Below are positions 612-47,354 of a stretch of DNA of 64,000 bases, piece by piece; the stretch's first letter is position 1, and each line of letters starts with the position of its first letter. Both the position numbers and the translations under genes were made by a program. The notes below the pieces were generated by a model. That model worked only from the letters and a program-made list of their open reading frames with translations. It made no database searches and was not told the DNA's origin. The stretch is taken from positions 33,587,166 through 33,651,165 of the forward strand of contig JAJEKV010000003.1 of assembly GCA_021234155.1 (NCBI GenBank), written 5' to 3'. This DNA is from Isoetes taiwanensis (lineage: Eukaryota > Streptophyta > Lycopodiopsida > Isoetales > Isoetaceae).

Positions 612-1286
612 TCAATTACAAGAGCAAACCTGTGAGATATCAAGGTATTGTATTGCTTGTGTTCTCCTCTTCATGACATCTCTAACCTTTGGTGAAACTT
701 TGGTATTATCAAGCCAAAATCCACGAACCTGACATTTGATTGAATCATCGATTCTATTTGATCTTGGCATCCTTCCTGCCAAAGCCCATACATTTGCTCC
801 ACTTAATGACATTATCTTCTTCTTGCTGCAGCTTTGGATAAATTTCTTGGCTGTATCTTTAGCAATTTTGAAGAAACATTCTTGTTTATATCTCCTTTTT
901 TTCCAACAATCATTGATAACAGTGAATGTTTTGCAGCCAATTTATCTTTGCTATTAGCACACTTTACTTCTTGAAGCCCATCTTTCAAGTTTCTGATCAT
1001 TGATTTCATAACAATAACTTCGGAAGGATTTCCAATTACAGGTTCGAAAAAAGAAAAAAGCCTGCCATCTTGCAAGACGAGCACAAAAAACTAATCTTTG
1101 ATCTGGACGAAGCGTTTGCCAGCAACTGAGGATGCAATCCACCGACCTGTCAACACGCTGCTTTATTTGTTTTGTGCCATAACGCTGGCCAATGTCGGCA
1201 TACTTGCGCTTAGAACCACCACTTCTATTGGAATTCTCACCCTCCATGAACAGATTGAAATTGATTTGTATTTCTTGTAGATTCAA
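612..1286 (-). pseudogene. decayed ORF of an unidentified protein family, probably repeat-derived
   Basis: Three minus-strand frames join into one protein-like stretch. The first (1286 to about 1045) contains KRKYADIGQRYGTKQIKQRV and a run resembling LRPDQRLVFCARL. The reading then shifts near an A-rich run at about 1046-1060 and continues as VIGNPSEVIVMKSMIRNLKDG and KDKLAAKHSLLSM. A stop at 812-814 overlaps an ATG at 810-812, after which the sequence resumes with NVWALAGRMPRSNRID and VRGFWLDNTKVSP. The mix of basic and helical segments suggests a DNA-binding protein, but I do not recognise the family. A frameshift and a stop make it a relic. It may be one copy of a multicopy fern family; that is inference. 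Confidence 0.45.
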
Positions 1287-1987
1287 TTGGTATGTATTTG
1301 CTTCTGGAATTCGTTCGGTGTTCGTCTTGTGAAAGGGGGGGAATTTCGGAAAGGGAGGGACGGATCCATTCGAATTGGTTCGGTGGTTCGGTGGTTAACC
1401 AAGAATTTCGGGGGCACTGTCCGGGATGATCTTGCAATCATTGCAAACTGACACAAAACAACAAACCAGAGTATCTTGATATACACCTAAAATGTACCCC
1501 AAAAAAGCACAAATTCATCCTTCAATTCAGTACGATGTACGTACACCCTTTCATGCTTTTACCCGGCTGCATATCAAGGGGTGTTTATGGGTAGTTTGAA
1601 ACATGAGCTGTTGGATGCAAAGCAGCAGGATTCTCTAAGGAGATTCAGGTGTGTCATCTAGTTAGCCGAATTTGGCACCTGCGTTTGGAGCATTTTGTTG
1701 CCTTGCAGCTACAGATTTCAGAACTCAAAGTTTAGTACTAGCATGGCACCTCTTTTCTTAGTCTCATCTCTTCTTGTTAAGTGGGCTACCTTGGTCCATC
1801 TATAAGTAGTAGCTGAATCAGATTTGGATGGTACATTTTAATTGCTATATTACTTTTCAAATAGCTGATAATCACTATCCCCTAGTTATTCATTGAGTTG
1901 TAACATATCAAATCTGTTCTAATTCATTCTCTTCTGTGCTGCATTGCAAAGATTTTGTCTATAATTGAGAAGCTTTTGGTTCTGCAG
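1287..1987. other. no gene seen
   Basis: AT-rich sequence with a short GGTTCGGT direct repeat at about 1376-1396. Open frames here are short and not protein-like. Confidence 0.5.
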
Positions 1988-2029
1988 TGTCAGGGTGTAA
2001 TTGTTGTCATTACACCCTGACAACAATTA
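1988..2029. other. two overlapping perfect inverted repeats
   Basis: TGTCAGGGTGTAAT at 1988-2001 is the exact reverse complement of 2009-2022, with a 7 nt loop. TAATTGTTGTCA at 1998-2009 is the exact reverse complement of 2018-2029, with an 8 nt loop. The two hairpins share bases and exclude each other. No gene is tied to it. Confidence 0.75.
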
Positions 2030-2475
2030 GCATGAAATCGTGAAGTCTACAGAAAAGGTGATCCTTAACAGTGGTAAGCTTCTACAACGACCTGCACCTT
2101 TTACCATAGAGCCAGTGTGCCACCACAACACACACAGTTGTTTATTGTTGCATGGAAATGCTGTTCTACATCATTATTATTTACCTTGGTTTCTTCAAAG
2201 TCCTACTACAGCAAAGATTTCTATGAGATATGTTTTTCACATTCTATTGCTTGTTGAGCAAGAATTTATATATATGGTGTTTGAACTTGTTATAGTGCTA
2301 GATATTGGATGTTTCTTCATTTCTCGATGTTAGGTGGAAGATTTTCCCATTTTCTTTCTGCTTTCGGGCCCAAAAATTTTTTTAATATAACAATCAATAC
2401 ACAACTACCATTGAGATTATTAATATAAACCATTGCATTTAACACATTTACATTAAAATCCCCCTTGAACCCCCT

Positions 2476-5707: not shown

Positions 5708-6778
5708 ATGGCTCATCTCACAGTAGGAGGAGCAGCAGCAGACATGGAAGGCAAAGAAGAAGTGCCCCAAATTGATCTATTAGCAATCAAATCGTCGATT
5801 GGTGCCAAGCAATTGGGGCATCTTCTACGTGGTTAATCATGGTGTTCCCATAGATCTTACACATGATGTGGATACAAAATTCAGAGAGTTCTTTGCTCTG
5901 CCTTATGAACTGAAGGGGAGACTTTGTGCCTCTCAACCAAACCGACCATATGGTTATTCTTCAGGAGGAGATGAGAGATCCACTGGGCTGGCATGGCAGG
6001 AGGCTATAGTTGTGCCTAATGATGAGAACACCTTGGCCACCATGTTTGAGCATCCTTCAATATGGTATATACATCTAAATCCCCATGCTAGTTTCTTCAA
6101 ATCTCACCATTGGTTGCATTTTGCAGCTCTGCACTTATGAGGTATATGAAGTTCATGGATCGCATGAGTACGGAGGTGCTCAACCTTCTGGCGGAGGCTT
6201 TGGGAATCAACATTACCACATTTAATGGTTGTTGCAAAGATAGTACTCGGGCTCTTAGGGCTAACTATTACCATGTCTTTTCTAAATCATCACATGTTCC
6301 TGGTTTGACACCTCATTCTGACCCCAATATGCTCACCATTCTACACCAAGATCAAGTCGATGGCTTGGAAGTAAAAAAAGGTGAGCAATGGATCCCTGTT
6401 CTGCCCTCCAAGGGTTCATTCACGATAAATATAGGAGATTCTCTCCAGGTAAGTCTAGAGATCAAATTTACAAACTTGGAAGTTGTAATTGACATTCTGA
6501 GTAACGTATTTAAATGGTAGCTTATGAGCAATGACTTGTACTGGAGCGTGGAGCATAGGGTGGTTGTCAAAGAAAACACCAGTCGAAGACTATCCATGGC
6601 ATTCTTTGTCTCTCCTCAAGGAGATAGTTGTCTAGTGCCACCTCAAGCACTAGTTGATAAAGAACATCCCTTCCCATATAATAAGATGACCTATAGTGAG
6701 TTTAGAAGTCTCTTCTTTGGCTACGGTGGTATGAATGGGAAAAGGCATCTTCAAGATTGCAAATCATATGTCTTCTAA
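5708..6778 (+). pseudogene. 2-oxoglutarate/Fe(II) dioxygenase (DOXC type, gibberellin-oxidase-like), frameshifted
   Basis: This resembles the plant 2-oxoglutarate-dependent dioxygenases that oxidise hormones and specialised metabolites in the cytosol. Three exons fit GT-AG rules: 5708-6064, 6127-6448 and 6521-6778, with introns of 62 and 72 bp. The N-terminal DIOX_N signature WGIFYVVNHGVP is near 5814. The iron ligands are present as HSD in LTPHSDPNMLTILHQDQVDG and the distal His in SVEHRVV; the 2-oxoglutarate-binding R-x-S is RLS. LTILHQD is typical of gibberellin oxidases and their relatives, but substrate cannot be told. The ATG at 5708 leads into PQIDLLAIK in one frame, IVDWCQ (5791) lies in a second and WGIFYVV in a third. 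At least two small indels in 5770-5815 therefore break exon 1, while the catalytic exons are clean. A misassembled base or missed start is possible but less likely. Confidence 0.8.
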
Positions 6779-7534
6779 TACAATACATGTGCTGGCCTAC
6801 TTCTTGATCCATTACCAATATTTCATTAATTTACTTGAAGCACCTATAGTCAAAGGAGTTATATAATATTGCATATAATGACGATGTGACATTGATCAAG
6901 AAGCATTATTTTTATGTCTCTCCTCCAAAAATCAAATGTACTATTTGATTGATCGACTTTGATTAAAGATATTCTTTAAATTTATAGAAAACTATTTATA
7001 TATTGAATTGATTGTATTATTGAATATTTGTAAATGTAGCTGCATAGATATTGTTGACTTTGCTAATTATTATTGGTAACATTGACACGTGTTAGAACAG
7101 AATAGTGTTAGAGAGTAAAAAAAAACGCATATGAAAGAAAAAAGGACAAAAGAAATTTCAATGGCATCTGACCTTAATTTCAATTAAAGAAATATAAATG
7201 GCATATGCTACAATTTCTAAGCAAGGTGCATCATGGACTACCTCGGCCGTAAGATCCGTGCATCCTATGCTCCATATCGTATGTTGATGCCTCCGTGCGC
7301 CCCTCATTTAGATTATAGTTATTTATGATTGGGGGCGCCTATGCTTTTGAAATATGAAATACAGGTTCACCTAAGGTTTTAGCATATGAAATATAGAGAT
7401 TCAAATTTTTACCAAGTTATTCATATCCAACTTATTTCATTGGGATTCTTTTGGTATCTAACTTATTTCATTGGGATTCTCTGATCTGAAGAAAAACTCT
7501 TTTGGCGTGCGTGCACGCGTGCATGCGTGCGTGT
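6779..7534. other. no gene; GTGC-type microsatellite at its end
   Basis: AT-rich downstream region of the dioxygenase remnant. An alternating purine-pyrimidine GTGCGTGC/GCACGC run at about 7505-7532 replaces the start of the following LTR. Confidence 0.5.
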
Positions 7535-7972
7535 GTGGACTGCTCGAGTATTCGAATCTTGAATGTGCTTATGGGGCGTTCCCGAGACACCGACATAAAT
7601 AGGTAGAAGCGACTACTCATAAACGTCTAGACGGTTTTGCCCAGTTGGCTAAGGGCATGCCGGCTAGGAACGTTACATTTGGTATCAGAGTAGGTCTCGA
7701 GTTCGAGTCTCCATGGGTGCCTATATGCATGGGTAATTTGCAAAGACTTGGTAATTATTATGACATGGTATAGCCTTGGATGCTCGAGGCGAGCATAGTT
7801 CTAGTGGGAGAGACTGTAACGGGCCCATGGTAGACCGCTCGAGTATTCGAACCTTGAATGTGCCTGTGGGGCGTTCCTGAGACACCGGCATAAATGGGTA
7901 GAAGCGATTACTCATAAATGTCTAGACGGTTTTGCCCAGTTGGCTACGGGCATGTCGGCTAGGAACGTCATA
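7535..7972 (+). mobile_element. TRIM (terminal-repeat retrotransposon in miniature), 5' LTR truncated
   Basis: A truncated left LTR (about 7535-7677) ends AACGTTACA. It is followed by TGGTATCAGAG at 7680-7690, the standard primer-binding site complementary to the initiator-methionine tRNA 3' end. The internal region is only 137 bp and ends in a purine-rich AGTGGGAGAGAC tract. The right LTR (7815-7972, 158 bp) begins TGTAACGGGCCC and repeats the left one, including GCCCAGTTGGCTA and ACTCATAAA. Nothing is encoded, so mobilisation would have depended on proteins from another element. The same family appears complete at 61805-62333. Confidence 0.85.
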
Positions 7973-10469
7973 GTTCAGAGCAGCCAGGCCAGGACCGGAA
8001 GTGACCAGTGCCTTGAGAGGCCCTCAATCTATAAGTTGGATTTCCTAAGGTTTTGTGGCTGCCCGAAAAACATTTCGTCCAAAAATTGAGAAAGAACTAT
8101 TTGGTATTTGGTATATTGTCAATTATTGTCTTGTCCAAACCTTATCTAATCGAGAGAGAATTTTCCCCTCGCTTATCTGATTGTACCTGGCGTGCATGCT
8201 GCTCATACCGAATAAGATAGATAGTATGGCAATAATATGGAGTTTTCCGATTCCAAGCATTAGCCCTGCCGAACTTCCCAGGTTTTGCTGCTGCTATGGA
8301 GGCAGGTACATCCTCAAAAAATATTCGAAGCCCATTTTCTATTGGTATATCCGTCTTCTTTGTGGCAAGAAGACCATAGCCTTGGATGGCCGACACCTTA
8401 TCTCCTCTAGGTTCATGCGGGCTCCATAAGGTATTCATAGTTGTTTTCATCATTAGCTCAACAAGAGTTAAGGGCTAATGATTGATACACTATTCTTCAA
8501 TAAGAGTTAATTTATTTTTTACAGATCAAAACATGTCTATGAATTTATTCTTTACATGGTGCGCTGAAACATGCGTAAATGTGTCCAATCCCTGGTCCAG
8601 AGAAGATTCATCAGATCGTCTCCACATTTATTGTGAGAATGAAGAGGATCTCCAGCTTGATTTATGTGGCTCAACTTTACTTTGTCTGAATATAGGTGCA
8701 TTATTTATCCTTTAGGTTCTTCTTCTCATGAATCTTATCAGTATCTAAGAAAATAAAATGTTTTGTGTATCTGGCCTTAACATCCAAATAAGGTGTAATG
8801 CTAAATAATCATGCTAACGGCCTGCAAGAGATCTTATTATGCTAAATAATGGTTTTGTAAGACATGATTTATATCTAAATAGGGCCAGGTTTTAGGGGTG
8901 TTGTCAACAATGTCCATGGTATTGCGATTATTGGAGTATTTTAGATTATTTGTCCAATTAAAACCGCTGCAAACAATTCCCATCTTGATCTATGATATTG
9001 TAAGAATTGATGATAAGCTTAATAGGTGCATGATGGGCAATACTACACAAAGAGGACATGCAAACTGCTTCATTTATATGGTTAAGATATGAAAAGTTAG
9101 AAGTACGCTTACTTTATGTATGTTGGATATGCCAAAATGTTCATGGAGCAAACAAAGAGGTGTGTGGCTAACATTGATTAACAAAAAATAAACTATTATA
9201 AGAGGTGAGAGATGTGCGGTCTTCAAAAGGTTACAAATTATGCCATGTTTACTTACTTCCAAAAACTTCAGGCCCAACACTAAGTTCCTTTTAATAAGTG
9301 GTGTATGTGCTTTCCTATGTGCCTTCTATAACTTGTGTTAGACTTCTCCTGTACATTATTTATAGATGGCTTTATCTATATATTTAATGCAAGTGAGAAA
9401 AAGGTGGGATGGTGGCACATCTCCTCACCTGTTTCACACTAGGAGCATGTGGTTTTAAGCAAGAGTCTGTAAAACTTTACATTGGGTGGCTTCAGTTTGC
9501 ACACTCAATGAATGTAATTACAAAGGCCTTCCTTCAGCAGAACATTTGATACTAACTGTTGTAGAATTTGGCCAGACAAGGTCCAGGTTCTTGACAGCTA
9601 TTAGCAGACAACAAAAGATTGTTCAGATGCATATAATAGTAGCACTAAAATAACAAAGAATGCAAAAAGAGCTTATCTTCCATGATAATGCATGTTGAAT
9701 GATGTTGGACAATACATCTATCCTTTTGAATTGGGCACAAATCAAAGGGACGTCTCTACCTTATTTCAGATAGGGTCTTTGTTGGAAGGTTCAATTCTTT
9801 TAAAATATTTGTTAGAATAAAATTACATTCGATGGGTCTGCATGGAGAACAAGTTGTCCATGCCACATAAAGATCTTTCGGAAGGAATTAGTTGGTTCTA
9901 CGAGGAAATGCTGAGTAGCCAGTTAGCTTCCATCTGCTTATCAGCATTATAGCTGAGCAGCAAGTGACATCATGGTTTGAGCCCATCCTTTCCCTATTGT
10001 ATGCAATGCATGCCATTGGCTAAATCCATATGCTTATGATAGTTGGATTCTCCTTATATCCAAAAATAACCTGAATCATGTTGAATTATGTGCAGAACAA
10101 GAGCGCCACAATGTTATAAAGGGAAATAAAAAACATTACTATGCATATGTGCCAGTTTCTTAGATGATAATAGAGGTAAAGAAAGTGTTGAGAGCTTTTA
10201 GATTCAACAGTATTGTTGTATTTTTTACAGTCTTTCTTACTGCCAGAACCATGTAGTATGGTTCCATAACCATACTCCAATGCCTGTGGTGTAAAGGTAC
10301 ACTTTGAGTCCGTAAAAGTGGGATCTCTCCTACTCCAGATGTACCTCTTTAGTATCTCTTTATCTTCAGCAGATTATGAAAAGCTTCATGCCGCAATCTT
10401 GTTGCCGCAAAAACTCCTATGCAAAATTGCAACTGCTTGAGTACATGTGTCACAACATTTGATGTTCAA
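7973..10469. other. no gene seen
   Basis: About 2.5 kb of AT-rich sequence without a recognisable protein. A 103-codon minus-strand frame at 8142-8453 has no family features or splice context. Confidence 0.45.
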
Positions 10470-11840
10470 TTTTTTTTTTTTTTTTTTTTTTGAGGGTAAG
10501 AATTTTTAGATTAATATGAAAAGAGGTATACGACCTTCTTGTGGGCTCCACAATAGGCCAGATAGGAAGTATATAATGCTCTTGGTCACCAGATAGAAAG
10601 AATTGTAGCAATAAATGCACGCAGCCATCAAACTAAAAAGCTACCCAAAGAAAAAGTCCACGTACTATGGTCAAGGATCTCAACCTCTTCTTCATACTTG
10701 CAAAATGATATGCTCCTCAGCCTTTTAGTTCTTCCAGTACTAGAGGGCGTGGCCTTCTTCCCAGCTATTGTATGTACTATGGGAAGGTAATAGCACTTGT
10801 AGAGTGCAATCAAAATTATTCCTCAAGATCCTGAAGAACGCGCCGAAGGAATACCTAGAAGAATAAAATAGGCAAGTCGCTCTGGATTGTATGAGAACGC
10901 CTGAAGATCTGCCTTCTTCTCCTACTAGCAGTACTATAGAGGCTGACTTGCTTTTCAGAGGTACATTCCACTACCAAGAAGCCCAACCCGCAAGATTTTA
11001 AGCAGAATAGAACTGTACTAGGCAAGATTGCCAACTGTCTTCTCACTAGCAAGGTACTACAGGCAAATCACCAAGAGCTCCCTCCCATACTAGAGCAACC
11101 CGCTACTCCACTTGAGCTGACTCAACCTCTTCTCTACAATAAAGGTACTATAGACTAGGCTACTCTTTCCAAGTAGAGCTTCAAGGCAAAGAAACATATA
11201 TTTAACAGTTTTGAATACTACAGGAGAAAGCCAATCGCAATTCCAATGGAAATTTTCCAGGAAGCCTCAAGCAAGATCTTTGCATTACAGATCCATGGCA
11301 GCCCCGTCATGACAAATAGGAGCTGCAGTGGACAAAATACCTGTTTCAATAATATCTGCCTCCTGAAGCACATCCCCGAAAGATTTGAAGACATTAACAT
11401 TAAAACAATATATGTGTTGCAGCTACAAGAGACCACGGGTCTCCGTCTCAGTATATCTTGCTTTTACCAATCGACTGTCACGGATCACCATGTCATCCTC
11501 TATAGCTGGGATAGAGAAGGGGAAAAAACCCATAGGCGATACCAAGCAAGCAACACGTAAGACCAAAAAAAGCCATTCTATGTCCCCTCCTGTCATGGTA
11601 ATGCTGCCGTAAGTGCAAACACAACCGCAGTGAGTGCAGCCTTCAGGTTGCAATAGCGTCTACGCTCTAGCATCAGCCAAGAAAACAAGCTGACTACTAG
11701 CCTAGCTCTGCCCAAACACGAAAACACAAATGGCAAATGATTAAAGTAGTCTCCTACCAGATCAAGTGCTGATGCTACAAGAGGGAGTTGGAAATAGCGG
11801 CCATATCCCATCCTATCCTCTACTGCAACTGTCACATTAG
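10470..11840 (-). mobile_element. poly(A)-ended retrosequence, non-coding body
   Basis: A run of 22 T at 10470-10491 is the poly(A) tail of something copied from the minus strand. Just inside it, the pattern of an AT-rich block followed by AAGAGGTATACGACCTT resembles the block after the T-rich run near 50545 (GGTATACAACCTT), so both probably belong to one family. The body is rich in short CTACTAG/CTTCTTC-like words and shows no open protein. The 5' limit is a guess based on a shift to GC-rich sequence (GCCGCCGCCG near 11960). It could be a LINE 3' region or a retrocopy of an RNA. Confidence 0.4.
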
Positions 11841-12258
11841 AAATGGAGGCAGAGAACTTTACCTTCTGCCATGGCTTCCGGAAGAGGGCAGAAGCAGCAA
11901 GGCTGCTCTTCCAGCAATCGCACCTGCATAAGGTAGAGAGCAGTCGTCGGACGGCTGCCGCCGCCGCCCTAGTTAGGGCGCAACACGTTCCGCATCCGCC
12001 TTTCCACAGTCAAAACATTCGTCGTTCCGATGTTCAAATTGCATTTCAAAACATTTACTTTCTTTACCATCCGCACTGGAGACTTGCAAAATCATATACA
12101 CATTTTCTATTTATACCTTTGTTGTAGCATGGCCAAGAGGGCAATGACATAGTGTTTTAAAGATAAGCATGGCAATCTTCTCCACAAATATCTATGTAGT
12201 AATTGATGTATTGGCTCAGCTTCTGATTGCGACTCCATTCTGGCTCCCATAATTTGGA
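11841..12258. other. GC-rich patch, no supported gene
   Basis: Contains a GCCGCCGCCG run near 11960 and otherwise unremarkable sequence up to the target site of the next element. Open frames run through the patch on both strands, but none has family features. Confidence 0.4.
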
Positions 12259-13462
12259 AGATTATGCCCGGGGGGTGCAGCTAATGTAAGGTCATAGGGT
12301 TAAAGAAAAAGGCCCTTATAGGGTTAAAAAACTAAGAAAAATACCCTTTATACGGAATTGTTTAGACACTCTAGATACACCCCCTACCATATATGTACAC
12401 TTTGTTCTATAAATTCCTCCAAATCCCCTACCATATTTGTATAATTTATTATCTAAATTCAACTAGACCCCTTACCGTTTTTTTTAAATCAGTTTAATAA
12501 ATTCGAGCCAGACCTTCATCTATAAGCCGTTACAGGCCCATCTACAAGTGCCCTAGACAAGTTGTGTACATAGCCTATAGTTGACTATTTGAGTGACCAG
12601 GTTGAGTGTCAAGTAGGTGTGGTGTGATGAAAACTTGAGGACAACTAGTAGTAGGGCAGGCTTGAGGAAAAGGGTAGAATGGGGCTTGGAGAAGGGTAGG
12701 ATGGGTTTGTAGAGGGAATTGAAAGTTGCTTGCAATGAAGACTCGTATTATTTGTCTGCATGACACGAATAATGGATTTACAATTCAAATCCACAAAAGT
12801 ATAATGTTAAGAAATGTATTGTTAGGACTACTTTCAGTTCTAATCCACAAAAGTATAATGTAAAAAATAGGTTGTTAGGACTAGTTTCTTGTGCTTGAAA
12901 ATATTTAGATTGTGTTGGGACACTATTATTTACTTTGGGCGTATGGATAACCCCATATAGAATTCATAAGATATCAAATTTCATGGTCTTTGCTAAGGTG
13001 ACAAGTTTAGGAGAAAATAACCAAGTCAAAAGCATATTTGATTAGTTTGCATAGAACTTGTATAAAGTACTCTTTTGCAACATGGGTTCATGACTAGACT
13101 GGATTGAGAGCAAATGTATAATCATGCATTAATGATTGGGGATCAATCCTTTGCTCCCCATCATTATGAACTTCATATTTGAGGCAACCCTTCCATGTTT
13201 TTGTCTTCGTTGTATTTGGATATATAATTAAATTATTCACTCCACATGACCTAGATGGTCATACATTATAAAATAATTTCCTGGCATTGATGGCATGCCT
13301 TCAATGATGTGGACATGACCTAGATCATATAGTAAAAATAAATGTCTTGCATTCTTGCCTTCAATGATGTACATGTTTGGAATAAATGGTACTAGAGCTT
13401 TGTAAATCCAAAGAAAAATCAATGTGAATATGTTTGGGTTTCCAATTGTAGACAATTAATAC

Positions 13463-14760
13463 AACTGCAAGACTTGCCACATAACGTTGTGATTCAAAAG
13501 AGCGTCCATACAATTACTGTTACCATGTAAGCAATTCACAAAATGAGCAAACTCAAGGACATTATTGGCCTCTATTAATGCCGAAGTCAGTCTAAGGTAA
13601 GTAAAAGCGCGTGTGCCGCCCATTTATGTGGGTCTTTTCTAGCTTGGCATTTTCAAGAATTTTATTGTATCCAGCCTTGTCATAACAAGGGAGTGCATTC
13701 TCACTAGCTACATCAATACCAGCATCCCATGCAACATTCAACACCTGAAACCAAACACATTGCTTATAAGCAAACAACTGAAAATGTCTGAAATAAAAGG
13801 AAGGATTGTTTAAGTGATTGCATTGCGTAAGAGAATATACCTGCCAGACTAAATCCTCTAGATCTGAGAAAGCTTCACAATAATTCCTATCAAAATGCAT
13901 TCCGAAGCTCCACATTATGCTTGGCAAACATCTAGGCAATTGAGGCATATCCATCTCAGTGAATTGGATTGTAAAAACCTGCTGTTAATTCTGCAGGATG
14001 ACTGGCCGATTTATACCACTAGTGAATGCCAGAAACCTGTTAAGGAACAACAATAAGGTCAGCTCAGTGATCCCGTCACAGCTTGACCGTTTGCCCCAGT
14101 TTAGGGAAGCTCACCTTGGCAGAAATTCTTGTCTCCAAAAGCAAATTTGGCAAGGCTAAGGCTTCATCACCATGATTTATAAGTATTTCAGAATACCATG
14201 AAGAAAAAAAGCAACCATAATAGTTACCATAATGCCCTCCAACACAGAAAAAGCATATCCCAGGAGATTGTGAGTTGTAATCCCCTGCATTAATAGGTGC
14301 CACGCCCATTCCGAACATCCTCGACTCATTGCAGCTCTATTCAACTTGCACATCAAATATTTGCAAGCAACAGCAAATATAAATGATTTCATTTATCCGA
14401 TTTTAAGAATCTAACATCCATAAATCATGATTTTTAACGTTCAAACTATTAGCAAAAAGTCTGCAAATTTGGAACATAATTTTATGCAGTCCACCAATAA
14501 TTCCAACCATATTTTAAAGGATAGGAAGGATATTGCAACTTCCCACATGGACCAAGACCCACTTCAATATCTTCAATAGTCCCATCCTTAAAAGTCATCA
14601 ATGCCTGACAGAAACTCCTCATGAAGTCAAAATACACTTGTGCACAAGACAAAAAATTCAAGAATGCTGTTTGTAATGCAAAAGCTATAAACACTATACC
14701 TCAAGTCCGGTGCGCCAATTTAATACAGCACGTTCTTTCTCCTCTATGCTTATTAACAGT
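13463..14760 (-). pseudogene. beta-amylase (glycoside hydrolase 14), C-terminal exons, captured and decayed
   Basis: Beta-amylase releases maltose from starch ends. In minus-strand order the family's conserved blocks appear: VLNWRTGLE (about 14700-14740); VYFDFMRSF, then [17 protein letters not shown] (14482-14660); AGDYNS, FSSWYSEILINHGDEAL and TRISAK ending at a GTGAGC donor (14115-14310); EAFSDLEDLVWQ ending at a GT donor; then after an AG acceptor VLNVAWDAGID, ASENALPCYD and GYNKILENAK. FTYLRLTSALIEAN follows one base out of frame and runs to a stop near 13463. The N-terminal half of the (beta/alpha)8 barrel was not found. The first junction is off by one base, the FPGIGEFQCYD block expected after SYPLKYGW is absent, and the last exon is frameshifted, so it cannot make an active enzyme. 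Confidence 0.85.
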
Positions 14761-15299
14761 ATTTATCGCATATGATTCTGCAAGCAGCTCTAGTGCCATG
14801 CCTGTATAATCAAAAGATACAGTAAACATCTCTTCTGCAAGCTTAGGTTCAAGCATTATTCTATTTTGCAGAATTTATCACATGCATTGAGCAGCCTATT
14901 CCAAAGGACATATAGAAAAACAAATGAATAAACGTCAAATTGCAGATGAAGGACAACTTTGCAGCACCTAGCACCCGAAGGTCAGAAAAATAGGTAGCCC
15001 AAGATCATAAAGTAGCCCAACTCAAGCAATCTGTGCCTTGGGAACTAGCAATAACCAGCCGGTTTTTTAATGTAAATGTCACACCATGGTAATTTAGTGC
15101 ACTACAAGAATATTGAACTTAGCACAAGCACTACTTATCAAGCCTGCTATCAACTGCCATAATTGATCTTCACAACACACTTAATAGTGCATATCACCAT
15201 GAGCACCTTACAATCTGCAACCTGACCAGCAAATGAAATGCAAATAAAATTTAATACCATTATAACAATATCATATCCAAAATCAACTTTACCTTTCTT

Positions 15300-16116
15300 G
15301 GTCTTAATCTTAATCATCATGTGCTGGATGCTTCCCCTTGGTCTCTGCAAAATGTTCAAACAGTTAGTTTAGTTACCATAAGCAAGTCATTGCAAAGAAA
15401 TTACTCACAAACTTATCAAACTTTGTCTTGTCACTGTCAGGCAATGCATAATTGTTATTAGCAGAACTAATGTTAAATCGGTAAGGGAAATCACACTTTC
15501 TAATTCTATGATGTGGTTCTCCAACAAGCCACATATGTACCATTGACAGGAATCTCCAGCCAACTGATCACAAACCTTATACAAAGCCATGTTAGATGGC
15601 CTATTGGCCAAGTCAAAAAACAAAAATAAAAACAAAAAACAAACAATCATAACTAGCCTTACACCCGCTCTAAACATTTGTCATCTCACTCCCAAAATGC
15701 TGTTCAGAAACTCTGTACAAAAGAAAAAGAAAGTTAGAAGAAAATATTTGTATAGAAACCACAAAAAAAATAAATGTAGAGTCCATACATTTGCAATCGA
15801 ACTCAGCCAAAATAGAGCAATAAATGAAGCCACAATAACACTACCTGTTCTGGAACAAAAAAAATGAAAAAAATAATGTCATCAGCATACTCTGATCTCC
15901 AGTTGGAGAGGATTAATGTCTAGATATTTACTTACTCGTTATATACCAAGGACGATGCTCATGGATTTGCAGCCTGAAAGAATGGATAATATCACAGATT
16001 CTAGAATCTGCTTCTAAATCTGGCATCAGGACTTGGAGTTCAACGTCAGGATAGTTTTCCTTACTCAATGCATGTATCCGGCATAAGATAAAGCTTCCGG
16101 CCATAAACTGTAGCAT
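15300..16116 (-). pseudogene. second set of captured exons, gene not identified
   Basis: Protein-like pieces occur in minus-strand order: FILCRIHALSKENYPDVELQ with IHSFRLQIHEHRPWYI (15928-16116); WLVGEPHHRIRKCDFPYRFN and NNNYALPDSDKTKFDKF ending at a GTGAGT donor near 15406; then RPRGSIQHMMIKIKTKK between an AG acceptor near 15345 and a GTAAAG donor near 15290. Splice signals and residue composition argue for real former exons. They do not match beta-amylase and I do not recognise the family. Being in the same orientation as the amylase exons, they could be transcribed together as a chimera. Confidence 0.5.
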
Positions 16117-16777
16117 CCAGACAGATCTTTTGCCTTGATAACTTTGTTTTCAGTCAGAGCAAAGCTGGAGGACAACTGGGAGCCGATCGATTTTGTTTTA
16201 AACCTTCTTAGTTATCGTTAAAAAGGAGGCTGAGAGCTGCTATTGTCTTCAAGGTTAACCAACCACTCAACTGCCACTAAATCGTAGCTTTACCTAAAAA
16301 TTAATCCCCTATATTGTTCTTCTAAGCCAGATGCATCACCATAGCTAGCCATGGCCATCAGCGCCATTGTAGCGCCTTGAGCTTTCATTGCCGACCAAAT
16401 GAGATCTATTTGGAGCACTACCGAAGAAATGACTGCCAAAATACAACTACTGTAGCCGGCAGTGCCATCGGAAGAAATACCAAACTCCAAATGCCAGAAA
16501 GCTGCCCCAAGGTGCAAGAAAGCTCTCGACCACCGCAGACATCGAGCACTCTCAACCCCTTTCGTATACGCGACCAAAGCCAAAAAAACCCTATACCTCT
16601 AATGTATACGGACATGTGGGGATAGACCATTGAATCCTACCCCCAACATACCTAACAAAAGTGTGGCCCTTACCTCACCCGTACATATACGTACAAAAAT
16701 ACCTTAAAATAAACCCTCTATTATACACGCACGTATTTTGTAAGGTTTCCATTATGTGCACCCCCCGGGAGATTATG

Positions 16778-17116
16778 GCAGCATTCTAACATATGTTAAG
16801 CAAGCATTTTGTTTAGATCTTTTATCGCCGCATGACATTCAATTCCAATTGTGTATTTGATTTGTACTTGCAGACCTAAAATTCTTACACGTTTATTTGC
16901 TTGATGAATCAATGTGACAGAACAGAACTTTCTAATCCTGAAGATTTGAATCTCCTGCATTGTAAATTTAACTCCCAAGTGTGAACCATGAGAGAGGAAA
17001 TTTTCAAACATCCATTCCAACATGGACTCCTAAATAGATTATGAATGTACGAGAGTTCGTGCTACAATTCTATGGAGTGCTCTATTAATGTGAAAGAACT
17101 GCAATATTATTGTAAT
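16778..17116 (-). other. possible minus-strand exon, unidentified
   Basis: A 75-codon minus-strand frame at 16796-17023 contains HLGVKFTMQEIQIFRIRKF and looks moderately protein-like. It lies between two transposon insertions and has no family signature. Confidence 0.2.
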
Positions 17117-17124
17117 ATCCATAT

Positions 17125-17746
17125 CAGGGATAGGTTCAATACGTTGTACGTTTTATACGGAATACGTATGAATTGTATGATACGGCACATATTTGCCGTA
17201 TAAAACGTAAAAAATACGGCAAAAAAAATTCGTCGGAAGATTTTGGCGTCGCTGAAAATTTACCAAGCGTCAAACGATGAAAATCGCGTCTTGTGAAAAA
17301 AAAAAAAAAAAAAAGATAAGGTATTTTTTTCGGCACGATCCGAAAACCTTCAGATCGCAGACGTCTGTGAAAGTATTTTACTGCGTCGCGATCTGAGAAA
17401 CCAGCGTCTGCGTCTGTGAAATTCAAATTTTTTTTACGGAAAAAAAAAAAAAAAATTTTGAATTTCGGCGTCGCGGAATTCTTACGTATCGCGATGTGAA
17501 AATACTACAGGCGTCTGTGAAAAAAATAATATTTTTTTTTTTTTTTTGCGTTAGGTGTCGCCGGTTTTCAGCTTTTGTACGTCTGTGAAAAATTTCAGCG
17601 TCGCTTTTCACGTTGTTTTTTCGCGTCGAAAATTTTTCCGGCCGGCGAGGTTTTAATACGTTAAATACGTATTTTATTAAAAAATACGTATTTTTTGACT
17701 TTATATGTCAGGAATTTGAATTTTGTACGTACAGAACCTATCCCTG
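17125..17746. mobile_element. 622 bp hAT-type MITE with 8 bp target duplication
   Basis: CAGGGATAGGTTC (17125-17137) is the exact reverse complement of 17734-17746; CAGGG-type ends are typical of hAT elements. ATCCATAT flanks both ends exactly (17117-17124 and 17747-17754). The interior encodes nothing. It carries repeated TACGTATTTT/ATACGG words near the ends and many short GCGTC-GTGAAA units separated by A or T runs. It would need a transposase from elsewhere. Confidence 0.88.
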
Positions 17747-17754
17747 ATCCATAT

Positions 17755-18390
17755 GCTTTTCTTTTAACACACAAATCCTTGATTATAGATTAACTGCGAA
17801 AACCTAATCACAGATCGTTCTAATTTTACAGTATCTATTATGCTTCATACACGATAAAGGTGAATTCTAAGCTATTTTTTGATGGTTCAAAAACTCAGAT
17901 AATGTTGCTTTACATCCAATTTCCATGTCATTTTAGGTTTTATTTCACAAAGGCATAAGGATAATCTCTGAGCATAAAAACTTAAATGTCATAGCTCGCC
18001 CTTCAATCTTCACGCTACTTCAATATATTCATTGCAGTATATTCTAGGGCAGAGACGTGAAAATATATAATCTTCAGGTACCAGAGCTTCATTCATCTAA
18101 ATTTTGAGCATCTATGTTTTTAGCATGGAGTATCAATATTTTTTACCATACCATAAATTGGATGCATCAAATCATCTCAACCATGTCCAGCCTGCTTTCA
18201 AACCACTAGCTAGTGATCTCTTTTTGTATAATAACGACATAAACAATTTTGCCTTTTAAGCCATTTTAGTTGGCGTTGATCTCTATAAGCCATTTTGGTT
18301 AGATTTGTTTGAAGCATTAATCTTTACATTTTAGAATTTTGAAGCTCTACAGTTTTATAATTTGCTCAAGCATTCTTGAGACCTCTTTTC
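17755..18390. other. AT-rich, no gene; possible LINE 3' region
   Basis: Lies just downstream of the minus-strand LINE reverse-transcriptase remnant. No poly(A) or microsatellite tail was recognised, so the LINE 3' end is probably lost or too diverged to see. Confidence 0.4.
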
Positions 18391-19743
18391 TCAATTACTA
18401 TGTACTGTAACTTCACTATGTTGAAACTTCTTAACTGCCCTACACCCTTTACCTCTACTTGCCTCCAATGCCAGGCATTGCAAACAACCATCATCCATCT
18501 CAAAGTGGAAGCTTTTATCAACAATCAGCCCAAGATATTTATACACATTTGCAATTTCTATAGTTTCAGCTTTATAGTACCATGCAAAATGATCCATTTC
18601 GTTAGCTCCAAAGATAATGATTTTCATTTTATTCCTATTCACTACCATACCCTTTGCATCACAAAATTCTGCTAAGGCGTCCAAGTTCTTCTGCATACCT
18701 CCAACATTTCTAGATAACATCATAATATTATCTACATATAATAAGAGTAGTGTAACAAAACCCATCCAGAGACACGCCTTCTCTCCAATTCTACTTATCC
18801 ATTCCTCTAACTCATCTATGAATAGCCTTGCTTTACTCCAATATTGCTATCCACTAAGCTCTGACATTTTCTAAAAAAGAGAAATAATAATTGCACTAAA
18901 AAAAGGGAAATAATAATTGCACTAAAAAAAGGGAAACAATATTGCACTAGTACCTTATTATACAGCGCCTTGACCGCAAGTTGATATTCCACAGGGATTC
19001 CAAGCTTGTCCATGCACTGCCAAAGATTACTCCTTTGCACCTTATCGAAGGCCTTTGTGAAATCAACAAATAATGCAAACATAGGTGGTTTCTTACCTAT
19101 GACAGAATCCATCAATGCCCTGAAGGTAATTAGATGATCAATAGTGGATTTTTTGCGATGAAATCCAGCTTGGCCTTTAGCTCAAACTTTATGTTCACCC
19201 AGGCACTAATTTTAGCATCAAGCGTGGTAGCAAAAAGCTCTGAATATAAGATGCTAACTATTATCATTCTATATTGTTAGGATCAGATACATTGCCTGCC
19301 TTATGCAATGGTATGACTCTATTTATCTGCCAAGATTGTGGAAATCCCTCATGTAATGCTGCATTAAACATCGACACCAATACATTAGCCACGAATAACC
19401 ATGCCCATTTAAACATTCTTGTTGTCAACTCCAGAGCATCCATCGCTTTCCCATTAGAAAGCTTTTGCAGTTCTTTAAGGACATCCTCATCAGTAAGCAC
19501 AGGGGTATTGTACCCAACCCCATGCCAACTATCGTCCAGCCCATGTACATAATAGAGATCATGCACTTGCTTCCATAAATCAGCCACATTAAGCATTGCA
19601 TTTATTGGTTTCTTAGGCCTAAGCATTTGCCAAAAAAAATTTGGATCCAAAATCAACTCGGCCACCATATCTTCCTGCCTTTTCCGCAAAAACGCTTTCT
19701 TCTTGAATTTGACTAGTTTAATATACTCTTTGTTAACCATCAT
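18391..19743 (-). pseudogene. LINE reverse transcriptase domain, broken
   Basis: Three frames carry the RT order. The first (19743-19264) has an ANVLVSMFNAALHEGFPQSW thumb-less N-terminal block and RVIPLHKAG. The second (19115-18816) has ALFVDFTKAFDKV with its catalytic Asp, and GVKQGYS. The third (18765-18391) has LLLYVDNIMML, the position of the Y-x-D-D active site, where the second Asp is Asn. YKYLGLIVDKSFHF follows, as in other LINEs. Loss of the catalytic Asp, a tandem insertion at 18881-18950 and frameshifts make it inactive. Confidence 0.85.
18881..18950. repeat. 26 bp tandem repeat inside the RT remnant
   Basis: GAAATAATAATTGCACTAAA plus AAAAGG occurs at 18881-18906 and again at 18907-18932, followed by a partial diverged copy to 18950. 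It lies between the codons for YNKVLVQ and those for DSNIGVKQG, so it expanded after the element had lost function. Confidence 0.8.
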
Positions 19744-20079
19744 TTTATTTAAGCCACTAGCTGACCTGAATTCTTGCCTCTTTTATTTGCATTCCATGTC
19801 GAACTATTCTTTTTTGAAACAAGGCAATGTTCTGCTACAGAGAGTACAAGAGAGCTCAACTATCCACTTATTCAATGTGCATCGAGAGGCCATTCACTAT
19901 GTGCAATTTTCTCTTCACAAAATTTTTCATACCTTTCGCTTTAAACCTAGATATAAAAAACTTTTTGTTTGCATGGAAAAATCTCTATTTGTGCACGATC
20001 CAATTGCGTTAATTTCCACAAGCAAAAGCACATGATCTGACTCAGTGCCTATATCCACTACATACATCCTTGCAATAAT

Positions 20080-20700
20080 CAACACTTGCTATTATAAAAT
20101 CCACTACACTTGCATCCTTGCAAGTACACTTTCTTGAGTCTGGATACTTGGTACAAAACAAAATTGAGTCCACTGCACATATTTAACGAACGGAATCCTT
20201 GCAGCTTAAGCCATATCTGCAGATATACGATACCATCCACTAATAGCCAATTCCTGTTCATCTAACATTTCCATCCATATTGGATCTCCATTTGGGCTGC
20301 TAATAGCTGCTTGCTTGTTTGCTATGCGACCATCAAAATTGCCAAGTAAAAGAACATTGCCATGTTGCATTAACTTTATTATGTCCTGTTCCAAGTGAAA
20401 AAAAGGATCATCCTATCTAGATTTATCATAGGTAGGCGATTCCCGAGGTGGAAAATAGCAATCTGCAACAAATGTCTTTTTTTTCTTACCAGGTAATTCA
20501 ATCCAAATATATTGTTTTGGAAGATTTGTGCTTAAGAACTGAAACTGTTTGCAAAAACGCATTCCGAACATAACATGCAATGCCTCCAAATCCCCTGAGT
20601 CTCCACCCTTTTACATTCTAAACAGAATAAATAGAAATGAATCCCACAATTTTCGGCAGTCCTTTTTCTTCATGCTCAGACATCTCTAAGAAAAATATGA
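20080..20700 (-). pseudogene. LINE endonuclease (exonuclease-endonuclease-phosphatase fold), broken
   Basis: Minus-strand blocks include ADCYFPPRESPTYDK (about 20430-20470), then HGNVLLLGNFDGRIANKQ (about 20320-20370), matching the conserved G-D-F-N-A-R block of AP-type LINE endonucleases with Asp and Asn swapped. Further on are SDHVLL-like codons near 20030, the position of the SDH catalytic motif. Several stops interrupt the frame. Confidence 0.7.
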
Positions 20701-21391
20701 TATCAAAATCCAGTAAAACATAATCCATAGTAGAAACCTTAGTAGCAGTCAATGTGTTTACATTGCAAGATCCGCACCTGATGGTCTCACATCCCTAACT
20801 ATCTGTCGCCACCACCTTGCCATTGTGCCAAGACGTCTTTTGGCCTTGTTGCCTTGCTTGCTTGAGTATTTATACTTGCTCTTTATGTTCTTGAAACTGT
20901 ACTTTTGTAAGGTCATCATTAATCTACACATTTTGCCGCTTCAAAGAAGCTCTCTTTTTCAAGATATTAAATTTGTTGTCTCTAATATTGAATTTAACCA
21001 CCAATATTGTTGTTCTGAAAAGATTGTATAACCACTTGCTTTATGTCTTCTTTCCCTTCCCCTGGCAGTCCTATCAGATGAAGATTCAATGTCCTTGACT
21101 TTCTTTCCAAATCTTCCAAGAAATCTGCCAATTGTTGTTTCACCTCTGCTACTGAATCATGTTTTTATATCCATATCCATTCTCTTCGTCGCTGTCACTA
21201 GTATCTGTTGCTTCTTTCTCTAATTCTAGTTTAACCTCTGCCTTAAACTGCTCAAATTCATCCCTTATCTCTTTTTTGAATTGCTCATAATCATTTCTCA
21301 TTTCTTTACAGATAGCATTCCTTAAGTCACAAGCTATGCTAGGAATTATCTCTTTTAAAATCTTTGCGATGGTTTCTTTCACGGTGTCACG

Positions 21392-23388
21392 CATAGTTGG
21401 GCCGACCCACCGACCTAGCCGACCTGCCGACCTAGGTGGGAGAAGGCCAACTTAGGTGGGGATTTTTTGCCGACCTACCGACCTATTCCGCCAAAATTCA
21501 ACTTTCTTTTTTCCTGCAGTTAATGCATAAATAACATGTAATACATCTCTACTTCTAAATAAATAGTGAATACAGACAAGTTTACACCTCAAATAATTTC
21601 TAAATAGTCGATTTATGCTATTAAACTTCAAACAAAGCAAAATACATTGTCTTTTGAGGAAAGATACATAAGAAAACGAGTAAATAGTAGCATCAAACCA
21701 AATACATATTTCTAATCTTCGTCTTAATCTTCATCTTCATAAGAAACTTCATCTTCATCTTCGTCTTCAACATTGGAATCTTGATCATCCTCCTCCAAAT
21801 CTTCCTCATTGCTTGATTCAATGTCCTCATCCTCCTCATCCTCCCCTTCCTCATCTTCCTCCTCCTCTTCATCATCCAATTCCATAGTCTCCTCATACAA
21901 TTGATTCAAAGGACGTACCCGATGGCGACGACGATGAGAACGTGGACGTTGGAGCACTTGTGGTGGAGAAAAGATCATCCTTTCAATTTGAATCCGTTCC
22001 AATTCAGCTTGAACAAGTAACAATCGTTCTTCATCTTCTTCAAACACAATTTTCTTTGGATCATGCTCAAGATAAGTCTTAAGCATAAGCATATCCGCCA
22101 CTTATGTTGTCTGCGCATTTGAGCAACAGTAGTAGGCTTTCTGCTTAACAGATCCTTATATTGCAGTCCTGATATAGTAGTAGAAGTGGAACAACAAATT
22201 CAAAGCATGAATACAAATATATGCCAGACATTGTTTCCAAGCACTCATAATGCATTTCTTTAATTGTAAACCCATTCATTCAGCATGAAGTATATATTAT
22301 GCCATGGCTGTTCAAAAAATGTGTTACATTCCCTTAATCTAAAAAGTTCACACTATTTCCCAAGAATCATTCAATTGTAATGTTCCCTTCTCAAGAAAAT
22401 CATGGGCAAGGGGAACCAGATCGTACAAATCTGTCATGCAATATTTGGATGTGGTATTCCACCACATGTTCACTTTCAGCAGGAGAAACCTGGTTTTTTT
22501 TTTTTTAAAAGGCAGCCGTCTATAGAGTCATAGGATCTATTAATGGATCTGTTAATGGATGCAGTTATAGATACAAGAATAAGACTCCTTATGATTTTGC
22601 AAATACTCCTTATTTTTATGATTTTGTATTACACAGTGAAATAGTGATGAACAGAGAAATATGGTATGTAGAAGATAGAAACAATGGAAATCAGATTGAA
22701 TACCTCAAGAGACAGTGGTATCAGCCCAAGGGTAGCTCCACACCTGCAGCCTTTCACAGTCCTTATCAACCCATATTTTCCTGCAAAACAACCAGAATCA
22801 CATCATTTTTCTTCATTCGATTTATGAAGATCCTTATAGCCATCTCAATCTATTAGATAATATGCCTGTTCTTGACAAGATACCTGCGATTTCAGGTTAG
22901 GTTCTGAATAGCCCTTTCATTACCGTGCAACATTCTTAAGATCTGAGCTATGGACATGGTTCTGAGCCATTTATTCCAGTGGGTCTTCTTTCAACCTTCA
23001 CATTCACAACACTTAATTAATCTATTCCCTAATCGGCTGAATGGAGCAGTGCATTTACATTTACAAGCATCCAAGACTAGTTTTCAGTGGAAGAAGGTAC
23101 CTGGAGCTCGGATTTGGCGACGCCCTGGCCGGATTTGGCAATGTCCAGTGCTTGCAATGATGAAAACAGAGAGTAGGAACACTCAGGTTTAGATTTGGGC
23201 TGCCAAATCTCTTCGAAAATCCTCTGTTGTTCATTGTTTTTGGACCCACGAAGCGTAATGTGAGTGAGGGGGGAAATTTTTTTTTTTGGGTTTTAGGACC
23301 CATCCGACCGTGGGTCGGATCAGGCCGACTCCGACCTAGGTCGGAAACGCTCGGCTTTTAGGGCCGACCTAGGTCGGCCCCAACCATG
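21392..23388 (-). mobile_element. 2.0 kb hAT-type element with 8 bp target duplication
   Basis: The left end CATAGTTGGGCCGACC and right end GGTCGGCCCCAACCATG are near-exact reverse complements. GTGTCACG flanks both ends (21384-21391 and 23389-23396). Subterminal DNA has clustered GACCTAGG/CCGACCTA words, such as GCCGACCTAGGTCGGC, typical of transposase-binding sites in hAT elements. The interior holds an acidic minus-strand ORF (21724-22101) that resembles the tail of the hAT transposase at 61485. It lacks most of a transposase and is probably non-autonomous. Confidence 0.85.
21724..22101 (-). CDS. acidic C-terminal remnant of a hAT transposase (probable)
   Basis: 125 codons. The first half has FEEDEERLLLVQAELERIQI, then a basic stretch RSHRRRHRVR, and the last 50 residues are almost all Asp and Glu. 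The LLLVQ block followed by a Glu/Asp tail has the same order as at the end of the hAT transposase at 61485-61804 (NDEWLLLVQKTV, then acidic). This is the only link and is suggestive. A captured host acidic protein is the alternative. Confidence 0.4.
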   Translation of the reverse strand: MADMLMLKTYLEHDPKKIVFEEDEERLLLVQAELERIQIERMIFSPPQVLQRPRSHRRRHRVRPLNQLYEETMELDDEEEEEDEEGEDEEDEDIESSNEEDLEEDDQDSNVEDEDEDEVSYEDED

Positions 23389-31503: not shown

Positions 31504-33307
31504 TTATTCTTTAGCTGTGGCATAAACGTTTGACAGCAAGACATATCCACGATCACTTGATGGATCTACCTGAAGAAGCTGATACGTGGATCTCTTCGCC
31601 CGTTCTACATCATCATGAGCTATACATGCACTAACCAAAATTGTCCAAGCTATACTTTCCTGTGCAAATGGCATTTCATGGATAACATCCTCTGCTTCAT
31701 CCAGTTGCCCTACTCGCCCAAGAAGGTCTATGATGCAATGGTACTGCTCTATTGATGGCATGATACCAGGGTCTTTGCTGATTGAGGCAAAATAATGGTA
31801 ACCTTCAGCAAGAAGACCTGCATGACCACAGGCAGTGAATATAGCAACAAAGGTGATCATATCTGCCTTCACAGCATTTGACTGCATTTGACGATATAGC
31901 TGCAGTGTCATTGTGGCATTGCCGTGCTGGGCAAACATTGTGATTATGGAATTCCAGGAGATCCTATCCCAGCAGGGCATCTTCTCAAAAGCCCTCTGTG
32001 CCTCATTTAAACTTCCACATCTCCCATACATATTAATAATAGCATTGCCCACAGGCAAATCTGAAATATATCCATAATCAACAATCTGATAATGTACCTT
32101 GCGTCCTGTCATTAGGGCAGAAAGGTTTGCACATGCAGTTAGAATAGCTACTAATATGACCCGCTGTGCACATATGCTCATAGAGTTGAAGGGCCTCCTT
32201 GCTACATCCAAACTGAGCACAGCCAACAATCAATGTAGTCCAGGAGACCACACTGTGGTGAGGCACCCTATTGAACAGATAATATGAAGCCTCCAAATCT
32301 TCACATTGAGCATACATTTTTATCAACGTTGTCATGGCCATAGTATCAGATGCAAATTCACTACGAATAATACAAGCATGGATCAGTCTACCTTCTACTA
32401 ACATATTTGGAACAGAACATGCACCAGGAATAGTGAACAAGGTAATTCTGTCAGGTGTCATGCCTCCAAGGCGCATGCGCTTAAAAAGATGCAAAGCATA
32501 GTCATTTTTGTCATGCTGGATGGAGGCCGATATCATGACTGTCCATGTAAACACATTCCTTTGTTGCATTTTTTCAAACATTTCACAAGCTTTATTGAAA
32601 CTGCCACAATCTCCATACATTTTGACAATTGCTGTTCCAAGAACAACATCTGACTCTGAGGCATTACCAATGATGATGTCATGAATAAACATACCTTCTT
32701 CAAGATTGCCAAGGCTGCCACATGCATTTATAACGCTGGAAAATGTAAATCTGTCTGGCTTTTCTCCTTCTTCTAGCATTTTCTTGAAGAGTTTCATTGC
32801 TTCTGCACCATAACCTTGCTGTACATATGCAGATATCATAGCAGTCCATGAGATGACATCTCTATTCTCCATTCCGTTGAACACATTAAGGGCATCTACC
32901 AGGCTACCACACTTACCATACATCTTAAGAAGTGCAGTTTTGACAACAATATCATTTTCAGGAGCATTGATATTAATCCAACCATGAGTAAACCTGGCTT
33001 CACTCAAAGCTCCAACTCTAGAACATGCATTAATAATTGTAAGCAGGGTAATTCGATCAGGTTGCAGAGACTTATGCTGCATCTTGTAAAGTTGTCTAAT
33101 GATCTCATGGTGATGTTCTTGCCTGTTGCATGCAGAAACCATTACTGCCCAGTTGGTTTCATCTCTGTTAGATATTTGCTTAATCGTTTGCCGTGCTTCT
33201 CTCGACCTTTCTAATCCGCCTCCACCAGCATTAGGGCTGTTATCTCCTCTTCCCCCTTTAGAACCATGCAAATGTATCAAGTTAGTATTTTGTCTGATAA
33301 CTCGCAC
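31504..33307 (-). pseudogene. PLS-type PPR protein with one frame break
   Basis: PPR proteins bind organellar RNA and guide editing, splicing or stability. Codons 33307 to about 32160 give P, L and S motifs in order, such as VISWTAMISAYVQQGYGAEA, VVKTALLKMYGKCGSLVDAL and DRFTFSSVINACGSLGNLEE. Near 32150 the frame ends after YEHMCTAG. The second frame picks up at LVAILTACANLSALMTGRKV and runs through SWNSIITMFAQHGN, IDLLGRVGQLDEAEDV and an E1-like ILVSACIAHDDVERAKRS to YVLLSNVYATAKE. About seven residues of a P motif are missing at the join, which fits a small out-of-frame deletion. E2 is cut short and no DYW domain follows. The N-terminus is glycine-rich and shows no clear targeting peptide. 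A sequencing indel is possible. Confidence 0.85.
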
Positions 33308-45838: not shown

Positions 45839-45987
<149 letters not shown>

Positions 45988-46019
45988 ACGGATTTTCGGT
46001 TTCACTTTTAAAAACGAGA

Positions 46020-47050: not shown

Positions 47051-47123
47051 TTGTTAGACAATCCTTGTAAGCGCAACATCTAATAGGCCTGATGGCCTCA
47101 TAGATGGAAAATAAAAGCAATTT

Positions 47124-47280
<157 letters not shown>

Positions 47281-47354
47281 ACAAGTTTTTGTTAGTCTAT
47301 ATTTATTCCCTTCTAATATTTGCATAATTTGTTATTCCTATTGTTTGCTTGCAG

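Follow-up and report, generated by a model that had tools for sequence, protein, structure and literature searches.

A family of inverted-repeat elements with 8-bp duplications carries host gene fragments in the lycophyte Isoetes taiwanensis

We analysed a 64-kb stretch of Isoetes taiwanensis DNA (the window, G000:C1034:33587166-33651165) and found that the element at 12267-16769, called el1 here, belongs to a multi-copy family with defined ends, 8-bp duplications, and intron-containing gene fragments as cargo. One cargo-bearing unit of this family occupies three sites, each flanked by a different duplication, and two different cargos lie between the same flanks in el1 and in a sister element, L039. 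The family very probably consists of non-autonomous cut-and-paste Pack-TYPE transposons that have captured host DNA and are moved in trans, most likely by a hAT-type enzyme. Genome searches were done on the assembly of 1,658,258,908 bp in 1110 contigs.

Ends, duplications, and copies of the family

El1 has exact 13-bp terminal inverted repeats (CCCGGGGGGTGCA) at 12267-12279 (plus strand, family end type B) and 16757-16769 (minus strand, family end type A), and it is flanked by an exact 8-bp target-site duplication (AGATTATG) at 12259-12266 and 16770-16777, as the original prediction had described. When extended without gaps, the inverted match covers 23 bp at 87%. An inverted pair of 10 bp spaced 60-12000 bp apart and accompanied by an exact 8-bp duplication was found in none of 20 Markov-1 simulated 64-kb sequences, while the real window contains two cases, el1 and a short element at 17125-17746. 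The CpG observed/expected ratio is 0.39 in el1 and 0.47 in the window and does not set the element apart.

The prediction had proposed a genome search for other copies with the same ends, and such copies were found in number. The 13-bp end occurs 563 times (279 + 284) in the genome against two times (1 + 1) for the reversed control, and perfect ends 248-278 bp apart form 35 pairs against none in the control. Leaving aside el1 and the other family member of the window, el2, 54 loci were collected: 20 unpaired ends together with the 10 kb on their inner side, 11 pairs, 20 further miniature inverted-repeat transposable elements (MITEs), and three loci found via their cargo. Exact 8-bp duplications flank 43 of the 54 (11 of 20 unpaired ends, 11 of 11 pairs, 19 of 20 MITEs, and two of three cargo loci), the pairs and MITEs having been picked for perfect ends on both sides. 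Among the remaining loci, one duplication has one mismatch and one has four. Twelve unpaired ends have a partner, giving ten elements of 233-510 bp and two of 9.1-9.4 kb. The ninth base beyond the duplication matched in none of the 20 MITEs.

Chance pairing of the ends was rejected on the simulations and on the counts of ends and pairs. The wider idea of an artefact, in which unrelated inverted 13-mers happen to lie around an ordinary beta-amylase pseudogene, finds support in the one window at best; it is refuted by the genome counts, the duplications, and the full-length copies, and we regard its probability as practically negligible.

The two ends of one copy differ inside the inverted repeat and are thus asymmetric. 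In the MITE majority sequence one end starts with CCCGGGGGGTGCACACAGAAAAAACCGTACAAAACATGTGCGTG and the opposite end with CCCGGGGGGTGCACACAATGTGAAGTCTATATGGCATGTGCGTGC. By eye, el1 has the CCCGGGGGGTGCACACAGAAAAAACCGTACAAAACATGTGCGTG-type end at the right and a shortened CCCGGGGGGTGCACACAATGTGAAGTCTATATGGCATGTGCGTGC-type end at the left, and el2, by eye and by blast pieces, has the CCCGGGGGGTGCACACAGAAAAAACCGTACAAAACATGTGCGTG-type end at the left and the CCCGGGGGGTGCACACAATGTGAAGTCTATATGGCATGTGCGTGC-type end at the right. The inverted repeat of the family is 13-16 bp long (CCCGGGGGGTKCA), with CAAGGGGGGTTCA as a further form of the end and CAAGGGGGGTTCAC instead in some copies. A subterminal CATGTGCGTG-like motif is present in the MITEs and in el2. 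Twenty-eight MITEs have a median pairwise identity of 0.946. Compared with the majority sequence, 22 of the 28 are at least 90% identical and 20 at least 96% identical, while L047 scores 0.51 and appears misoriented in the comparison. Since 20 of 28 MITEs are this close to the majority sequence, the spread of the family is recent, as judged from sequence similarity. An identical duplication, CTCAAAAA, flanks both L030 and L049, which may go back to a single insertion that was copied.

Beta-amylase and other cargos

El1 consists of a cargo segment (13468-15489) between two backbones. The left backbone (12267-13467) is common to L039, in two aligned pieces at 87-90%, and to the beta-amylase carriers L060 and L061. 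The right backbone (15490-16769) is common to L039 at 89% and contains exon-like stretches of unassigned origin. L039 (4392 bp, duplication ACTCTATG) differs from el1 in the DNA between the two backbones, with sharp junctions near el1 positions 13467 and 15490, and its DNA there contains MurE/PAP11 exons (PDB 8w9z_N, 4.8e-32; by Pfam MurE reached 2.8e-4 only, below the cut-off). The same backbone with a different cargo indicates that the captured DNA can vary between fixed flanks.

The cargo of el1 includes beta-amylase exons on the minus strand, which matched the Pfam family GH14 (PF01373) at 7.3e-9 and 2.3e-8 and beta-amylases in PDB at 9.4e-12 and 4.3e-23. A third stretch gave a weak PDB match alone (0.45), yet it aligns with the host beta-amylase gene. 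Four pseudo-exons, with borders read by eye, lie at 13524-13744 (..VLNVAWDAGIDVASENALPCYD.. to ..LHG, frameshifted; PDB match of 0.45 for part of it), 13841-14036 (VSGIH*WYKSASHPAELTAGFYN.., with several stops; PDB and host alignment), 14115-14358 (..APINAGDYNSQSPGICFF.., starting near a lost splice acceptor; Pfam, PDB, and host alignment), and 14496-14637 (Pfam, PDB, and host alignment). The end part of a further exon (..NWRTGLEV) at 14700-14741 was recognised by alignment with the host gene L063, the similarity beginning within the exon. Because of its stops and frameshifts, the beta-amylase copy of el1 is a pseudogene. In the six frames of el1, GH14 was the sole Pfam family at E ≤ 0.1 and no transposase family was reported, so that the predicted intron-containing beta-amylase exons without a transposase were borne out by Pfam and PDB.

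The prediction had also suggested alignment of the interior with annotated beta-amylase genes. L063, a host beta-amylase gene on another contig, agrees with el1 in the order of its exons, which are open, and in the positions of its introns (read by eye). It holds an N-terminal exon stretch absent from el1, the exons again being read by eye. The part of el1 that resembles L063 extends from about 14741, within an exon, to near 13520. By blastn the main block is 72% identical, and shorter ones reach 86% and 78%. This level of identity suggests that the capture is old or that the true parent is another paralogue. Retroposition of the beta-amylase sequence was rejected, since the introns are retained in place. 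Neither of the flanks searched (7500-12258 and 16778-21500) gave a GH14 match at E ≤ 0.01, in agreement with exons that do not run on past the element. With these flanks, and with the host gene on another contig, an accidental fall of the ends around a host beta-amylase gene was rejected as well. Directly left of el1, at about 11988-12182 on the minus strand, there is a weak porphobilinogen deaminase C-terminal match (5.3e-4, below the cut-off), which may be chance.

A second set of exons in el1 had been proposed. By eye there are indeed open stretches with donor-like ends. Those at 15490-16769 belong to the backbone common to L039, and a PDB search with the exon-like stretch 15920-16179 gave nothing credible (best E 1.1). 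In a DNA search of the genome, the segment of unassigned origin at 15014-15489 recurred at 95% and, over part of its length, 97% at two further loci, in L060 and L061; partial matches of 73-88% occur in at least 12 others.

The whole cargo segment gave at least 53 matches in the genome (best 40 of 77 candidates scored). Among the best-matching loci are L060 (4674 bp) and L061 (4822 bp), both of which, compared by DNA only, are full-length copies of el1. They have exact duplications of their own (CTATGAAG and ATTTAGAC), and each retains about 330 bp missing from el1. The different duplications of the beta-amylase carriers argue against segmental duplication that included the flanks. L062, a candidate for the host beta-amylase gene, was rejected as such because it proved to be a truncated family copy.

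Other host genes are represented in further members. L038 carries a ureide permease match (8.3e-40). L037 probably carries a PEPCK fragment (PEPCK_ATP, 2.2e-5) and has a weak pentatricopeptide repeat (PPR) match (0.002); both were assigned to L037 by exclusion, the same scans of L039 and L038 being without them. L015 (9.4 kb) and L025 (9.1 kb) were scanned jointly and gave two matches, RRP12 HEAT (6.3e-6) and reverse transcriptase (8.7e-4). Each match occupies a single frame of the 12 and may come from L015 or from L025. A fucosyltransferase-like stretch seen by eye in L015 was dropped, as it had no PDB match at E ≤ 1. There are nine full-length elements longer than 3 kb (el1, el2, L015, L025, L037, L038, L039, L060, and L061). 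Matches to host genes are present in six of them and possibly in a seventh, which would be L015 or L025, and el2 has none above the cut-off. Two side observations concern family loci. In L024, open frames at 624-2308 (minus strand), by eye mitochondrial ATP synthase beta exons, adjoin a family end, and at 35732-36551 of the window 820 bp match the interior of L025 at 88%, a shared repeat.

The enzyme proposed to move the family

The prediction had called the target duplication of el1 hAT-like. The length of the duplication, 8 bp, is a hAT feature, but the hAT target pattern was not seen and no copy with a transposase was found, and hAT membership of the family is unproven. A preference for nTnnnnAn is not universal among hAT elements. 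In the available text of PMC10368747 this pattern is the target of the hAT transposase Hermes. Among 41 unique duplications, that of el1 included, no significant preference was found, with T2/A7 at 31 of 82 positions compared with an expected fraction of 0.307 (p = 0.19).

PF05699, the hAT dimerisation domain, was the only transposase family searched genome-wide, and it gave at least 150 matches among 1150 candidates, of which 150 were scored; ten matches lie in open frames that are 736-820 amino acids long. The single hAT frame that was fetched, L064 (820 amino acids in a 5.4-kb stretch), has no family ends. By eye, no PF05699 match was seen near a CCCGGGGGGTGCA end on the contigs of the first 100 end places, which were inspected for this form of the end only; the nearest seen was about 47 kb away, on C390. 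A hAT-type enzyme is the most likely transposase to act on the family.

Besides hAT, duplications of 8 bp are made by the superfamilies P, Merlin, Zisupton/KDZ, and Novosib. The mover might belong to one of these, possibly one undescribed in land plants. The CCCGGGGGGT end is unlike typical hAT ends, which speaks for such a mover, as do the duplications without the nTnnnnAn preference and the L064 stretch without a family end. However, the CAAGGGGGGTTCAC ends of some copies are nearer to hAT ends, and the genome is rich in hAT dimerisation domains; we consider another superfamily unlikely. A more elaborate scenario is quite improbable in our view, namely that a non-hAT superfamily undescribed in land plants moves cassettes that swap captured genes between fixed flanks, a single backbone having spread fragments of beta-amylase and MurE through the lycophyte genome.

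A Mutator-like element (Pack-MULE) was also considered. Pack-MULEs resemble the family in that they carry gene fragments with introns inside elements with terminal inverted repeats. MULEs make 9-bp duplications, whereas those of the family are 8 bp, with no ninth base matching in the 20 MITEs, and its inverted repeats are short (13-16 bp). The duplication length largely refutes a Pack-MULE, and we judge it very improbable. The family has neither CACTA ends nor a short duplication, and its 8-bp duplications and own ends set it apart from that group. Helitrons have no inverted repeats and no duplications, while the family has both.

Two other sequences in the window resemble hAT elements. The 622-bp element at 17125-17746, 348 bp past the right duplication of el1, has inverted ends that agree exactly over 13 bp (CAGGGATAGGTTC), and the 8-bp duplication around it (ATCCATAT) is exact and fits nTnnnnAn; the element has the appearance of an ordinary hAT MITE. 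At the window edge, an open frame (63232-63999, minus strand) matched DUF659 (E 1e-44), a hAT-associated domain, and is probably part of a hAT transposase gene.

Cargo uptake and relation to known elements

If the family is moved as proposed, a transposase encoded elsewhere would recognise the asymmetric ends (CCCGGGGGGTKCA together with the CATGTGCGTG-like motif) in trans and make an 8-bp staggered cut, and a hAT-type enzyme would be the most likely one to do so. On this reading the element took up genomic DNA of a host beta-amylase gene together with its introns, one of the breakpoints falling within an exon, and the resulting carrier later transposed whole into three sites or more. Cargo may be taken up or replaced by faulty repair of the excision gap or by recombination between elements.

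Besides the selection of paired loci for their perfect ends, several observations weigh against Pack-TYPE transposons moved in trans. None of the elements scanned proved to encode a transposase, so that no autonomous copy with the same ends, which the prediction had proposed to look for, came to light among them; the Pfam scans, which reported no transposase family, covered el1, L015/L025, L037-L039, and parts of el2 (45986-47125 in three frames only). One of the 20 MITEs has mismatching flanks, and the cargo-found locus L062 has a single end. Eight of the 20 unpaired ends have no duplication-bearing partner, with two mismatches allowed, within the 10 kb fetched. Of these eight, L018, L022, and L023, and to some extent also L019 and L027, can be aligned with MITEs along the whole MITE length or a portion of it; they may be MITEs with one decayed end. 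A PDB search with one of the six frames of L037 did not confirm PEPCK at E ≤ 0.01. Finally, el2, which the original prediction had missed, has proper ends and no target-site duplication.

El2 (44528-50113, 5586 bp) has end A at the left and end B at the right. Its inverted repeat is exact over 16 bp (CCCGGGGGGTTCACCT), and blast gave matches between its ends and family members. Its flanks, CTTAGGAG and CTCTCGTG, differ, and its Pfam matches, which weigh on the same side, are all below the curated cut-offs (best DUF7953, 6.1e-4). The left flank is by eye a copia reverse-transcriptase fragment that is not continued at the right flank; Pfam gave nothing at E ≤ 0.001 for 44054-44488, and the copia identity is a by-eye reading only. 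Either a rearrangement may have removed one flank of el2, or its ends may derive from two neighbouring elements.

The latter would agree with another route of cargo uptake, in which two neighbouring elements are used as one by pairing of their outer ends, in place of gap repair, and el2 would be a hybrid that never moved as one unit. Such a route is proposed for Pack-CACTA in the available text of PMC13317346, and el2 has ends A and B in proper order with no duplication. However, el1 and L039 share more than 1 kb on each side of different cargos, which a single hybridisation does not explain, and el2 may merely have had a rearrangement in its flank. This route is possible, and we hold it only tentatively. 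Uptake or replacement of cargo by gap repair or by recombination between elements remains our preferred reading.

El2 also contains, by eye, a LINE-like fragment (45846-47285) bordered on each side by a long (CT)n run, as though it had entered at a CT repeat or ended in one; Pfam did not recognise it in three plus frames. Elsewhere in the window, pieces of a LINE-type reverse transcriptase lie at 18394-19782 on the minus strand (RVT_1, 7.3e-5 to 0.0045, below the curated cut-off). There is an open PPR frame of 674 amino acids with an E motif at 55646-57667 (minus strand; PPR_2, 1.2e-77), with further PPR pieces at 31507-33325 (minus) and 39200-39763 (plus), and pieces of a 2-oxoglutarate dioxygenase gene are found at 5784-6517 on the plus strand (DIOX_N, 1.6e-14; 2OG-FeII_Oxy, 4.3e-16).

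The family has the features of Pack-TYPE elements: it has terminal inverted repeats and a duplication, it carries host gene fragments without a transposase, and it is multi-copy with related elements that cluster. It shares with hAT MITEs and Ds the 8-bp duplications, short inverted repeats, subterminal motifs, and many short copies, but no hAT enzyme is linked to the family and the nTnnnnAn preference was not seen. The prediction placed the known gene-carrying elements mainly in the MULE, CACTA, and Helitron groups, a view that no longer holds, since Pack-TYPE elements were reported in 2022 for hAT, PIF-Harbinger, and Mariner too (Gisby and Catoni, available part of PMC8903248). As described there, Pack-hAT elements of rice and maize are, similar to our family, non-autonomous elements with terminal inverted repeats, 8-nt duplications, and host coding DNA, and they are multi-copy. 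Our family differs in its ends (CCCGGGGGGTKCA / CAAGGGGGGTTCA), in its host, a lycophyte and not a grass, in its unproven superfamily, and in having two cargos on one backbone. Pack-CACTA also captures chromosomal DNA, and el2 could be a two-end hybrid of the kind proposed for it (PMC13317346, available text), but the family lacks CACTA ends and the 5-nt duplications given for CACTA in the accessible part of PMC8903248.

The prediction had further regarded el1 as an unusual and possibly undescribed family. A literature search with the end sequence gave no transposon paper among the matches listed, and in searches on Isoetes or fern with Pack, MITE, hAT, TIR (terminal inverted repeat), and gene capture, and on Pack-TYPE hAT and Novosib, the family was absent among the titles listed. 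Thus, as far as the literature was searched, the family, its ends, its lycophyte host, and the occurrence of different cargos in a single backbone are new, but the kind, Pack-TYPE including Pack-hAT, is already known from the available text of PMC8903248.

In the literature at hand, gene-carrying elements with terminal inverted repeats come from rice, maize, and Arabidopsis (PMC8903248 and PMC13317346, in their accessible parts), and here they are found, recently active, in a lycophyte. According to the available part of PMC8566536, repeats similar to plant proteins were removed from the published Isoetes taiwanensis repeat library. Such filtering would tend to drop gene-carrying elements, and their fragments may stay annotated as genes. 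Sister copies with different genes between the same flanks offer a direct comparison for cargo uptake and exchange.

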